Of a DNA stretch of 64,000 nt, positions 49,456-54,060 are shown piece after piece. The notes under the pieces were generated by a model that was not told where the DNA came from, searched no databases, and worked only from the letters and a program-made list of their open reading frames with translations. A program made the position numbers and the translations under genes. Location: NCBI GenBank assembly GCA_029267445.1, contig JAJUIU010000008.1, positions 1-64,000 on the forward strand, in the 5' to 3' direction. The stretch is from Rhodospirillaceae bacterium (GTDB taxonomy: Bacteria; Pseudomonadota; Alphaproteobacteria; Azospirillales; Azospirillaceae). Position 1 is the stretch's first letter. Each line of letters starts with the position of its first letter.

Positions 49456-50781
49456 ATGCATCCAGTGGACGTGAGCGCGGCACGGCCGGAAGCCCACGAG
49501 CCGGACGGCCTGTGCCGGGACTGCGGCGCGGCCGTGCCGGCCGACACGCGCCGTTGTCCCGCCTGCCGCTCCGGGCGGGTCTTGCACCACCCGGAACTGC
49601 ACGGCCTCGCCATCGCGCATCTCGACTGCGACGCCTTCTACGCCAGCGTGGAGAAGCGCGACCGGCCGGAACTGGCCGACAAGCCGGTGATCGTCGGCGG
49701 CGGGCAGCGGGGTGTGGTGTCGGCCTGCTGCTATGTGGCCCGCATGTACGGCGTCCGCTCCGCCATGCCGATGTTCAAGGCGCTGGCCGCCTGTCCCGAC
49801 GCGGTGGTGATCCGGCCGGACATGCGCAAATACGCCGCGGTGGGCCGTCAGGTGCGCGCCCTGATGGAGGCGGTGACGCCGCTGGTGGAGCCGCTGTCGA
49901 TCGACGAGGCCTTCCTGGACCTCAGCGGCACCGAGACGCTTCACGGCGGCAGCCCGGCCCGCACGTTGGTGCTGCTGGCGCGCCGGATCGAGACGGAGAT
50001 CGGCGTCACCGCCTCCATCGGGCTCAGTCACAACAAGTTCCTGGCCAAGGTGGCGTCGGACCTGGACAAGCCGCGCGGCTTGGCGGTCATCGGGCGGGCC
50101 GAGACCCTGGACTTCCTGGCGGCGAAACCGGTCGGGCTGATCTGGGGCGTGGGCAAGGCGTTGCGCGCGAAGCTGGAGGCCGACGGGCTGCGCGCCATCG
50201 GCCAACTGCGCGAGACCGACCCCGCCCTGCTGGTGGCACGCTACGGCAGCATGGGGCATCGCCTCGCGGAGTTCGCGCGCGGCGAGGACCGGCGGACGGT
50301 GACGCCGAACGCCCCGGCCAAGAGCATCTCCGCCGAGACGACCTTCGCCAGGGACCTGCGCGCCCTGTCGGACCTGGAGGCGCAGCTCTGGCCCCTGTGC
50401 GAGGAGGTGGCGGGGCGGCTGAAGAAGGCCGGCCTCGCCGGGGCGGGAGTGACGCTGAAGCTGAAGAGCGCGGACTTCAAGCTGCGCACCCGGTCGGCGA
50501 AGCTCTCCTCCCCCACCCAGCTTGCGGACCGGCTGTTCAGGACGGGACGGGACCTGCTGCGTGCGGAGGCTGACGGAACGCCCTACCGGCTGATCGGCAT
50601 CGGCTGTGGCGAGCTGGTGGACGGCGGCAGGGCGGATCCGCCCGACCTGCTGGACCCCGGCCTCGCCCGCCGGGCGCAGGTGGAGAAGGCGATCGACGCC
50701 GTGCGCGACCGGCTGGGGGCCGCCGCGATCGCCAAGGGGCGCGGCCTGGGCGTGAAGCCCCGGCGGCAGCGGGACGACTGA
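49456..50781 (+). CDS. dinB: DNA polymerase IV (Y family) with N-terminal zinc ribbon
   Basis: A 441-aa translesion polymerase. Catalytic carboxylates are in [12 protein letters not shown] and [32 protein letters not shown] and [10 protein letters not shown] complete the palm and thumb, and the little-finger domain ends near [17 protein letters not shown]. Ahead of the usual start is a ~45-residue extension with C20-x2-C23 and C34-x2-C37, a zinc-ribbon-like module absent from E. coli DinB but seen in some alphaproteobacterial homologues. No clear LexA box (GTTC-N7-GTTC) is seen upstream. Convergent with the EipB-like gene, four bases between stops. ATG 49456 is preferred to the TTG at 49438. 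Confidence 0.94.
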
Positions 50782-50785
50782 CGGG

Positions 50786-51655
50786 TCAGCAGGGCGGCTT
50801 GGGTGCCGCCTCCAGGCTGTCGAGCTTGGCCGTCACCTTGAAGTCACCGTAGTCGATGACCATCCCCTGCACGATGCCGTTGTCCAGCAAGGTCAGCGCC
50901 GTCTCGTAGTCCGGCAGGTACTCCTGCTGGTCGGCGGGGAAGAAGGCCAGGTGGACCGGCCAGGCGTCGGGGCGCTTCAACTCGGGGCTTTTCGTCTCCA
51001 GCCCCTCAAGCGGCTTCCGGCGGCCCATCACGGCGCTGACGCCGGCGGCACCGGCCGCCTCCGACCCGTCGAAGATGTAGCGGGAGAAGAACGTCTCCCC
51101 CTGCTCCGCGAGGGAGAGCAGCAGGATCGTGTGGGCCGAGGGGAACATGGTGCCCGCCGGCAGGTCCACCCGCTTCTCCTCCGGGCGGGTGTAGCGGGCG
51201 ACACCGCCCTTCAGCCCGTCCAGGGTCGCGTCGCCGCGTAGCTCCTCGTCCAGCTGGCCGTTCACCATCTTGCGGACGTTGAAGCGGTAGCTTTCCCCGT
51301 CCTTCGCCTCCCAGGTGACGTAGCTGGTGGACATCTCCACCGTCTGCCCCTCGGTATAGGTGAAGGTGACCTCGAAGCGCTGCTCCACCGTCCAGCCGTC
51401 GCAGGCGTCCTGCCAGGCGAAGCTCATGCGTCCGTTCACGTCGGACACCGGGCTTCCCGCACTGGTCGTCCCGAGGGTGAGCAGATACGTGGCCTTGTGG
51501 GGCGCGATCGCGACCGTCGTGGCGGCCAGGGGTTCGGCGGGAGCGAGCAGAAGCGACACGACGGAAGCCACGGCCGAAGCGGCGGCGGCGAAGGCTGCCG
51601 CGCGGGGGCGGCGTTCGGATGCGTCACGCAAGGTGGGGGACCTGTCCTGCTGCAC
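50786..51655 (-). CDS. EipB-family (DUF1849) periplasmic cell-envelope protein
   Basis: A 289-aa exported protein. After a signal peptide (AAAFAAAASAVASVVSLLLA) the mature part begins IAPHKATYLLTLG and has SFAWQDACDGWTVEQRFEV, TYVTWEAKDG-type strand (SYVTWEAKDGESYRFNVRK), DLPAGTMFPSAHTILLLSLA and FDGSEAAGAAGV. The single Cys in DACDGW and the terminal Cys (KPPC) correspond to the disulphide of Brucella EipB, which supports envelope integrity. The GTG at 51655 has AAGGA five bases upstream and is much better than the ATG-less alternatives. Confidence 0.88.
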   Translation of the reverse strand: MQQDRSPTLRDASERRPRAAAFAAAASAVASVVSLLLAPAEPLAATTVAIAPHKATYLLTLGTTSAGSPVSDVNGRMSFAWQDACDGWTVEQRFEVTFTYTEGQTVEMSTSYVTWEAKDGESYRFNVRKMVNGQLDEELRGDATLDGLKGGVARYTRPEEKRVDLPAGTMFPSAHTILLLSLAEQGETFFSRYIFDGSEAAGAAGVSAVMGRRKPLEGLETKSPELKRPDAWPVHLAFFPADQQEYLPDYETALTLLDNGIVQGMVIDYGDFKVTAKLDSLEAAPKPPC

Positions 51656-51719: not shown

Positions 51720-51736
51720 GCGGCAAAGCTTGCCGC
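51720..51736. promoter_or_regulatory. Perfect short dyad, possible activator or operator site
   Basis: GCGGCAA (51720-51726) and TTGCCGC (51730-51736) flank AGC. It lies about 100 bp upstream of the sigma-54-type promoter at 51830-51844, the usual position for an upstream activator site, and 65 bp upstream of the EipB-like start on the other strand. The cognate protein is unknown. Confidence 0.35.
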
Positions 51737-51785
51737 CGACCGCCGGCGTAAGGGGAAATTCCTGCCGGGGTGCGTCGGGCGGTCC

Positions 51786-51824
51786 CGGCGGAAGGCTTGC
51801 GAACGCCAGCCTTTCCGCCGTTTT
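51786..51824 (+). terminator. Intrinsic-terminator-like hairpin upstream of the diguanylate cyclase
   Basis: CGGCGGAAGGCT (51786-51797) pairs with AGCCTTTCCGCCG (51808-51820) as a 12-bp stem with one bulged T and a ten-base loop, followed directly by TTTT. It reads in the plus direction with no plus-strand gene just upstream, so it may insulate the promoter that follows or act on an upstream-initiated leader. Confidence 0.55.
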
Positions 51825-51829
51825 CCCGC

Positions 51830-51844
51830 TGGCACGCCGGTTGC
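51830..51844 (+). promoter_or_regulatory. Sigma-54 (RpoN) type -24/-12 promoter
   Basis: TGGCACG (51830-51836), four bases, then TTGC (51841-51844) match the core consensus TGGCACG-N4-TTGC at all eleven defined positions, with ten bases between the invariant GG and GC. Transcription would start near 51856, about 30 bases before the diguanylate cyclase ATG at 51888. A chance match of this quality just upstream of a gene is unlikely. Confidence 0.72.
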
Positions 51845-51887
51845 CAACCAGAGCGCGAACGCATTTCCGCGCCCTGGAGTTCCGGCC

Positions 51888-52589
51888 ATGAGCCCGCTCG
51901 ACAGCCACATGTTCCACGACGCCCCGCCGACGCGGGCGACCGGGTTCGGCATCGACCTGCCGCTCCGCCGCATGCCGGCGGTCCCGCACCGGGACGGCGG
52001 CGCGCAAGCCGATCTGTACGCGGTGATGCTGCGCGACATGGCAGAGAAGCTGCGCGAGGCGGAGAGCCGCCTGGCGGAGCAGCAGGAGCGCATCGCCTAT
52101 CTGGAGACGCTGAGCCTGACGGACGAGCTCACGGGCCTCCTGAACAGGCGCGGCTTCACCGAAGCCTTCCGCCGCGAACTGGCGACCGCCCGCCGGACCG
52201 GCACCGGCGGCGTCCTCGTCATCATCGATCTGGACGGCTTCAAGGTGGTGAACGACACGCACGGGCATCTGGCCGGCGACCAGTACCTGCGCCGCGTCGC
52301 CAAGGTGCTGGCCGAGAAGGTGCGCGGCATGGACGTGGTGGCGCGGCTGGGCGGCGACGAGTTCGCCCTGCTGCTGACCGACACGACGGCCGAAGCCGGC
52401 CTCGCCCGCGCCACGGCCATCGCCGCGGCGCTGAACGCGGAGAGCTGCGCCCTGGGCGCCGCCGTCCTGACGCTGCGCGCCAGCTTCGGGGCCGAGCCCT
52501 ATGGTCCCGAGGACCGCGAGGACGAGGTGAGCCGCCGCGCCGACATGCTGATGTACCGCACCAAGGCCAGCCGCAAGGCCAAGCGCTGA
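51888..52589 (+). CDS. GGDEF diguanylate cyclase
   Basis: A 233-aa cytosolic protein. A short N-terminal segment and a coiled-coil helix (DMAEKLREAESRLAEQQERI) lead through TLSLTDELTGLLNRRGF into a GGDEF domain. VIIDLDGFKVVNDTHGHLAG holds the metal Asp, VARLGGDEFALLL is the active site at about 155-159, and RGMD is the inhibitory site, so it should make cyclic di-GMP and be feedback-inhibited. No sensor domain is fused; control may be transcriptional, via the sigma-54-type promoter just upstream. GGAG lies nine bases before the ATG. Convergent with the PAS pseudokinase, seven bases between stops. Confidence 0.93.
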   Translation: MSPLDSHMFHDAPPTRATGFGIDLPLRRMPAVPHRDGGAQADLYAVMLRDMAEKLREAESRLAEQQERIAYLETLSLTDELTGLLNRRGFTEAFRRELATARRTGTGGVLVIIDLDGFKVVNDTHGHLAGDQYLRRVAKVLAEKVRGMDVVARLGGDEFALLLTDTTAEAGLARATAIAAALNAESCALGAAVLTLRASFGAEPYGPEDREDEVSRRADMLMYRTKASRKAKR

Positions 52590-52596
52590 TCCTTGG

Positions 52597-54060
52597 TCAG
52601 ATCAGGCGCACGGTCAGGATCGCCTCGTCCGGTGCGGCCGCGCGCCGCAGACGGCAATGGAGAAGGTCGCCGGGCCGCGCGTCGCAGGGCAGCACCAGCA
52701 GAATGTCCAGATCGCGTTCGGCCAGCCCGCGCCGGAGCAGGTCGTCCAGCCCCGCCGCCCGCAGCGACGGGGCCAGCGTGTCGAACAGGTGGCAGGCGCC
52801 GGGCGGTGCCATCGGCCCGTCGCCGCGATCGATGGCGAGGACCTCCCCCAGCGCGTCGAGGCGGTAGTCGGCACCGGCCAGAGGCAGAAGCTCCCCGGTG
52901 TCGATGACGCCGCGCGCGATGGGGGCCGGACGGTTGCGGACCCTGAGCACCCCCTGAACCGGGGCCAGGCGCCGCCGGCGCACGCGCTGGATCGGCAGGA
53001 CGAAGCCGAAGCCCACCCCCGCCCCATCCGCGCGCTCCACCAGCAGCGTGCCGCCATGCGCCTGGGCGACGGCCCGGGCGACGGCGAGCCCGGGCGACGG
53101 CGGCCCCACACCCTCCATCCCGCGCAGGATGGTCCCGCCTGGGCCGGTCGACGGCGTCGATGCAGGGGCGCCGATCGAGATCAGGCAGCGGCCGTCGGGC
53201 AGCGGCACGGCACCAATCCGCAGGGGGCCGCCCGGCGGCGCTCGTGAAAGGGCCGCGTCCATCGCCGATTCCAGCGCCCGCCGGAACAGCCGGAGATCGA
53301 CCAGGACCACGCCGACGGGCCACGCAACCTCGCAGTCCAGGGCCCTGTCGCGGCCGACCGACCGGCCCAGCACCGCCTGCGCCGCGTCCGTCAGCAGGCG
53401 CTCGAGATCGACATCCTCGTCATCGAGCGCCGTCTCCGCCGCCTCGAGCTTCGCCATCTCCATGACGTCGCCCAGGATTTCCATCAGACGCCGGCCGCTC
53501 GCCTGGATGTCGGCGGCGAACGCCCGGTAGCCGTGCGGCTCCAGCGGGCCCAGCGCCTGATTGACCAGCACCTCCGCGAAGGCCATCACGGCGTTGAGCG
53601 GGACCCGCACCTCCTCGCTCATGCCGGCGAGGAAGGCGCTGGCGGCCGCCCGCGCCTCCACCGCCCGCGCGGCCGCGTGGCGAAGCTCCGTCTCCGCGCG
53701 GAGGTCGGCGCCGATGTCCACCAGAGTGACGAGGGTGGCGCCCGCCTGGGGGCCGTCGATCATGGGTGTCGCCACGACACGCACATCGACCGTGCCGCCG
53801 CCGGGACGGAGCAGCCGGCGGCGCGCAGGCGTACCGCCCGTCAGGACCAGGGTGCATTCCTGGCCGGGCATGCCGGCGGGGTCCACGCCGTGCAGGCGGG
53901 CGAAGGCCTCGTTGACCCGCAGGAAGCGCCCGTCGCCGCCGACGACCGCGATGCCGACATCCATGGCGGCAAAGGCCGCCTCAAGCGCGGCGGCGCTGGC
54001 GTCCGGCTCCGGTCCGGGCGCCGCCTCTCGATCCGCCTTCACCCGGCCGATGGTCGGCAT
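52597..54060 (-). CDS. PAS protein resembling a histidine kinase without the phosphoacceptor His
   Basis: A 487-aa protein. A PAS domain (about 25-118: AMDVGIAVVGGDGRFLRVNE, AFARLHGVD) is followed by a HisKA-like helix whose H-box reads FLAGMSEEVRVPLNAV, where canonical kinases have SHELRTPLN; Glu149 replaces the His. The ATPase-like region is also degraded: the Asn of the N-box is missing in LFRRALESAMDAAL, the D-x-G motif is absent, and only SPGLAVARAVAQAHGGTLLV and GVGFGFVLP recall the G2 and final strands. About 130 further residues may hold a second PAS-like domain. Probably a non-catalytic signalling or scaffold protein. Confidence 0.85.
   Translation of the reverse strand: MPTIGRVKADREAAPGPEPDASAAALEAAFAAMDVGIAVVGGDGRFLRVNEAFARLHGVDPAGMPGQECTLVLTGGTPARRRLLRPGGGTVDVRVVATPMIDGPQAGATLVTLVDIGADLRAETELRHAAARAVEARAAASAFLAGMSEEVRVPLNAVMAFAEVLVNQALGPLEPHGYRAFAADIQASGRRLMEILGDVMEMAKLEAAETALDDEDVDLERLLTDAAQAVLGRSVGRDRALDCEVAWPVGVVLVDLRLFRRALESAMDAALSRAPPGGPLRIGAVPLPDGRCLISIGAPASTPSTGPGGTILRGMEGVGPPSPGLAVARAVAQAHGGTLLVERADGAGVGFGFVLPIQRVRRRRLAPVQGVLRVRNRPAPIARGVIDTGELLPLAGADYRLDALGEVLAIDRGDGPMAPPGACHLFDTLAPSLRAAGLDDLLRRGLAERDLDILLVLPCDARPGDLLHCRLRRAAAPDEAILTVRLI

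Follow-up and report, generated by a model that had tools for sequence, protein, structure and literature searches.

Conserved sigma-54 promoter with predicted flagellar-type enhancer dyads upstream of a diguanylate cyclase gene in Azospirillaceae and other Alphaproteobacteria

A diguanylate cyclase gene and its neighborhood

The window analyzed here is a stretch of 64,000 nucleotides (positions 1 to 64,000 of contig JAJUIU010000008.1, assembly GCA_029267445.1) from a Rhodospirillaceae bacterium, genome G000, whose family includes Azospirillum. The gene at 51888..52589 on the forward strand encodes a predicted diguanylate cyclase of 233 amino acids, which comprises a coiled-coil-like stretch and a GGDEF domain with an RxxD I-site (PF00990, E 8.6e-37). 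In an alignment of ten relatives, the GGDEF motif, R146 and D149 of the RxxD product-inhibition site, and residues D114, N122, D123 and D131 are all invariant. With its GGDEF motif and its substrate and metal residues intact, the protein is a putative active enzyme.

GGDEF is the sole Pfam domain in the cyclase, which agrees with an earlier note, made from the window sequence, that described the protein as having no sensor domain. However, the stretch that precedes GGDEF is conserved as well as coiled-coil-like, and many family members share an N-terminus of the type M(S/T)PxD. These two features leave room for post-translational input, possibly by way of a partner protein. Because so many family members start in this manner, the ATG at 51888 is supported as the start codon.

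A divergent eipB-like gene (50786..51655, reverse strand; PF08904, E 5.7e-76) lies upstream of the cyclase gene, and the same divergent neighbor was found by tblastn synteny at 19 other loci in the family. On the other side, a PAS-histidine kinase gene (52597-54060, reverse strand) is located between the cyclase gene and aspS. In three related genomes (G043, G012 and G002), aspS follows the cyclase gene within the 1.5 kb fetched, and the PAS-histidine kinase gene was not found in that interval. Roughly 2.7 kb upstream of the cyclase gene, the segment 47343-49191 on the reverse strand encodes a double-receiver GGDEF protein with the PleD architecture and a single-receiver DivK-like protein.

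Promoter and dyad elements

The sequence TGGCACGCCGGTTGC at 51830-51844 on the forward strand conforms to TGGCACG-N4-TTGC, with CCGG as the four spacer bases, at exactly the position proposed in the earlier note. No other sequence in the 64 kb searched matches with one mismatch or fewer, and the site agrees with the sigma-54 consensus of the type TGGCAC-N5-TTGC, including the GG and GC dinucleotides at fixed spacing. The gap between this -24/-12 site and the ATG is 43 bases; the earlier note counted 44. The genome carries one copy of rpoN (one PF04552 match, E 1.2e-66).

Across the 4.23-Mb genome, the exact consensus occurs at 8 sites, versus none for the reversed pattern, whereas a looser consensus occurs at 15 sites, versus 12 for the reversed pattern. 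Because enrichment is seen in the exact form and not in the looser form, consensus counting was dropped as the main evidence. Taken alone, the consensus match is modest evidence for a promoter.

A perfect dyad, GCGGCAAAGCTTGCCGC, is found at 51720-51736 (no strand assigned), which is the location given previously; the TGG of the -24 element follows 109 bp downstream. The dyad is a predicted FlbD-type enhancer site. A degenerate dyad that the earlier note missed, GGGAAATTCCTGCCG, occupies 51753-51767 (no strand assigned), 32 bp from the distal dyad and 77 bp upstream of the TGG, and is predicted to be a second enhancer site at conserved spacing. The dyad core was defined as the eight bases of GGCA-N5-TGCC and was counted when at least seven were present; the proximal dyad has seven. 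A matrix built from 69 dyads in the cyclase promoters of other genomes, with the window's genome excluded, ranks the distal dyad first and the proximal dyad fourth over 63,985 window positions.

Conservation in the family and the class

Exactly one clear cyclase relative (E <= 1e-40) is found in each of 46 of the 59 family genomes. The cyclase is present on contig C46 of genome G068 and on the A. brasilense contig NZ_QLKQ01000014.1. The 450 bp upstream of each of the 46 relatives were searched for both elements, by using a hand-weighted consensus score rather than a trained matrix for sigma-54 sites, in which a score of at least 14 marks a strong site. This score is reached in 45 of the 46 relatives, versus 4.7% of shuffled sequences, and the TGG is mostly followed by an in-frame ATG 40-65 bp downstream. 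At least one dyad is present upstream in all 46 relatives, and 44 have a perfect core. None of 2300 shuffled upstream regions carries both elements.

Two dyads about 30-37 bp apart are a frequent arrangement in the family, for example at -76/-113 or -78/-111 relative to the TGG. The window layout, with the perfect dyad at -109 and the degenerate dyad at -77, agrees with this arrangement.

The same combination extends well beyond the family. A profile of ten relatives was compared with 337 alphaproteobacterial genomes, and the regions upstream of its best matches were scanned. A -24/-12 site occurs in 76 of 82 relatives outside the family and in 41 of 46 families (4.3% of shuffles), and 66 of the 82 have both this site and a dyad with at least seven core bases, 34 of them perfect (0.2% of shuffles). 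Most of the relatives that fail the scan rank lowest among the profile matches. Because the genomes counted share ancestry, the counts cannot be treated as independent trials.

As a control, we used 91 loci from other diguanylate cyclase searches. The sigma-54 score is attained at 12 of them, and a dyad accompanies it at only three. Of these three, L068 (A. brasilense) and L069 (an uncultured Rhodospirillaceae bacterium) are true relatives. The third (L038) comes from a genome with no clear relative (G003); it shares the coil-GGDEF architecture and resembles a diverged member of the lineage. A quick tree, in which many branches are weak, places the relatives almost entirely in a single group separate from other cyclases (3-4 label changes).

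In the comparison of relatives that the earlier note had called for, the -24/-12 element and the dyad are thus conserved, but not a hairpin that lies between them. Conservation, and not the consensus alone, makes the predicted promoter convincing: it is the decisive support for a real sigma-54 promoter, which is now strongly supported. The dyads are likewise supported as enhancer sites for a sigma-54 activator, the role suggested for the perfect dyad at the outset, by their presence in all 46 family relatives and before flagellar sigma-54 sites. The comparison shows that a flagellar-type sigma-54 promoter, as predicted from these elements, is kept on the cyclase in dozens of alphaproteobacterial families and is not a quirk of a single genome.

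Hairpin and spacer

Between the dyads and the promoter, an imperfect hairpin with 12 outer stem pairs (51786-51820) is followed by TTTT (51821-51824), so that the hairpin and T-tract described in the earlier note are present at 51786..51824 on the forward strand. The predicted folding energy is -24 to -26 kcal/mol (z -2.8 to -3.8). The hairpin has no match in Rfam. It was also considered as a dispersed repeat, but no second full copy exists in the genome, and the partial matches are short (the best is 21 bases).

In relatives, an IHF-like site is common in the spacer, between the dyads and the promoter, at a near-fixed position about 30 bp before the TGG. All nine IHF consensus positions are matched in 14 of 76 class relatives versus 0.4% of shuffles; the window spacer matches five of nine only. 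The distance from dyad to promoter is 109 bp in the window and 109-113 bp in many relatives. Because this distance equals that of its relatives, the hairpin appears to have replaced spacer sequence rather than lengthened the spacer.

FlbD as the candidate activator

The genome encodes seven full sigma-54 activators, identified by inspection as NtrC, NtrX, PspF, FlbD, a C22 regulator and a pair of LuxO-like proteins. FlbD is the only one confirmed by a curated cut-off (NF050807, 779.8 versus 750 bits). Its gene (C104:12241-13632) is part of a cluster of the order fliF...fliH...motA-like-flbD-flhA, in which it is adjoined by the motA-like gene and flhA.

Sigma-54 sites elsewhere in the genome, collected by pattern search, were inspected for the dyad. 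It is found upstream of the sites before flgK (-87), flgF (-111, with the sequence CGGCAGCTTTTGCCG) and flgE (-79, degenerate), as well as before two genes of no known function (C128:31282 and C135:2800). Dyad-matrix scores are 17.8 for flgK and 10.4 for flgE, and both genes without a known function also score high. No dyad was found at the sigma-54 sites before pspA, efflux, BLUF and outer-membrane-protein genes of this genome, where matrix scores are low. The flgH site lacks a dyad and is an exception among the flagellar genes.

A search of the 59 family genomes for the dyad together with the promoter yields 98 matches, spread over 55 of the genomes, versus two for the reversed pattern. Among 30 sampled loci, about 15 are before flgF, six or seven are before an uncharacterized protein with an IINPLQHIP-like motif, four are before the cyclase and one is before a hook protein. 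In the window's genome, a narrow composite pattern has three matches, with flgK the meaningful one; it misses the window locus because the perfect dyad there stands further upstream.

Among 87 cyclase-bearing class genomes, 69 have an FlbD match, versus 97 of the other 250, a comparison in which about four candidates were scored per genome and kinship was ignored. The remaining 18 of the 87 gave no FlbD match, but such absences are unreliable with so few candidates scored. FlbD is also present in 12 family genomes that have no clear cyclase relative. All five sampled genomes of one genus (g8: G007, G016, G041, G046 and G050) are FlbD-positive and have no clear cyclase relative. R. centenum, which belongs to the Azospirillum clade, loses its polar but not its lateral flagella when flbD is mutated (PMC2890560, citing unpublished results).

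FlbD is the best candidate because the dyad is common to flagellar sigma-54 sites, flbD lies in a flagellar cluster, and R. centenum mutants show the polar-flagellar defect. The activator, left open in the earlier note as flagellar, nitrogen or biofilm, is thereby narrowed to the flagellar FlbD as the most likely protein, and a nitrogen or generic biofilm regulator is disfavored by the presence of the dyad before flagellar genes and not before pspA.

Several other loci bear the same or similar elements. A family of proteins that share IINPLQHIPxVNxxYR, or a closely similar motif, has the dyad and a sigma-54 promoter in several genomes, at C135:2800-2814 (L008) and at L148, L149, L166-L168 and L170. 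The copy in the window's genome has no NCBIfam match, and the family is likely to be an undescribed member of the flagellar regulon. A sigma-54 site at C128:31282-31297 (L065), which has the top dyad score (20.0) among the sites tested in this genome, precedes a gene for a 183-amino acid protein with a hydrophobic N-terminal stretch and no confident Pfam or NCBIfam match. Three unlinked sigma-54 sites (L001, L003 and L006, at C13:18722, C26:18723 and C119:36043) share the 20-base sequence TGGCACGGCGGTTGCTGATA. One of these is before a transglycosylase-like gene and one is near a pspA-like gene, and none of the three has a dyad.

Alternative explanations

The hairpin had been interpreted as an insulating terminator that shields the promoter against read-through, and its 12 outer stem pairs with TTTT directly 3' are indeed suggestive of one. 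However, the same segment in the 45 other family relatives folds like shuffled sequence, with at most one mild exception, and the tract of only four T's falls short of the U-rich tract that follows the GC hairpin of an intrinsic terminator; a simple terminator scan was also negative. There is, moreover, little to insulate from, because the upstream neighbor, the eipB-like gene, is divergent, and the nearest co-directional gene, which is dinB-like, lies on the far side of it and ends at 50781, roughly 1 kb away. The spacing between dyad and promoter is the same in relatives that lack the hairpin, which simply occupies the spacer. The hairpin is therefore probably not an insulator, and we regard such a role as decidedly unlikely. 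Another objection would be that the -24/-12 match and the dyads are chance occurrences in GC-rich DNA and that the cyclase gene uses another promoter, as might be argued from the looser consensus being no more common in the genome than its reversal. Chance would hardly keep a near-fixed spacing in 45 of 46 family relatives and 76 of 82 class relatives, or place together two elements whose combination never arose among the shuffles, and this explanation is most improbable.

The promoter might instead be real and its dyads bound by a different activator, such as one of the LuxO-like pair, NtrC, NtrX, PspF or the C22 regulator, in which case the cyclase would respond to nitrogen, envelope stress or some other signal. 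Six further NtrC-type activators are encoded in the genome, and the cyclase-bearing class genomes without an FlbD match would fit this possibility. Those absences may be false, however, and the dyad marks flagellar sigma-54 promoters, is missing at pspA promoters, and in many relatives stands before flgF and hook genes. Control by an activator other than FlbD thus seems unlikely.

Proposed regulation and its significance

The cyclase promoter very probably belongs to the sigma-54/FlbD flagellar regulon. From the sites and their conservation, the dyad common to flagellar promoters, and the presence of RpoN and FlbD, we infer RpoN-dependent transcription from 51830-51844, FlbD binding, control by the FliX checkpoint, and the timing and physiological output described here. 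FlbD would be produced from the early flagellar cluster, bind both dyads, which precede the -24 element by about 77 and 109 bp, and contact RpoN-RNA polymerase at 51830-51844. The cyclase gene would then be switched on alongside the rod, hook and hook-associated genes. Caulobacter FlbD is freed for activation, through FliX, only after early basal-body parts assemble (PMC3930126, PMC3096577). By analogy, passage through the FliX/FlbD assembly checkpoint may yield the cyclase as a by-product and so raise c-di-GMP capacity in flagellated cells.

Building a flagellum thus probably also turns on synthesis of c-di-GMP, a signal to settle down. We lean toward the broader view that this cyclase lineage is hard-wired to the FliX/FlbD checkpoint throughout the class, such that completion of the early basal body brings with it a dedicated c-di-GMP synthase. 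If so, cells would be pre-armed for the switch from motile to sessile life, or for tuning of the flagellar motor. A named and testable activator now takes the place of an unspecified one, and flagellar assembly is predicted to feed into c-di-GMP synthesis. Dardis et al. reportedly observed in 2021 that FlbD-FliX affects exopolysaccharide in Bradyrhizobium (cited in PMC12918737). The cyclase link could bear on that effect, if the species has the cyclase lineage.

Comparison with known systems

Although the promoter type is known, no FlbD-controlled diguanylate cyclase was found described in the literature searched. The closest parallel is provided by the FlbD/ftr sigma-54 promoters of hook, rod and flagellin genes in Caulobacter crescentus (PMC3930126). 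These are alike in having a -24/-12 site with upstream enhancers and in FlbD coming from an early flagellar cluster, and the IHF-like site of the relatives, between enhancer and promoter, is a further resemblance, although the window's genome lacks it. The likeness is one of layout, and the Caulobacter targets are structural parts, whereas the target here is a predicted c-di-GMP synthase.

Among enzymes, CdgC of Azospirillum baldaniorum (PMC8564387) is also a diguanylate cyclase of the Azospirillaceae, but it has a REC domain and 294 amino acids, in contrast to the 233 of the window cyclase, and is encoded by a different gene. SiaD (NCBIfam NF038266; PDB 7e6g) shares the arrangement of coil and GGDEF, and the alignment reaches into the coil. 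The window cyclase was considered as a SiaD protein and rejected, since it scores 128.7 bits against a cut-off of 290. Caulobacter DgcB, a stator-associated protein that acts in flagellar surface sensing (PMC7885107, PMC11580411), is likewise a GGDEF enzyme tied to the flagellum. The catalytic Glu is residue 261 (E261) in DgcB and residue 158 in the window cyclase. The tie of DgcB to the flagellum is physical, through MotAB, whereas that of the window cyclase is predicted to be transcriptional.
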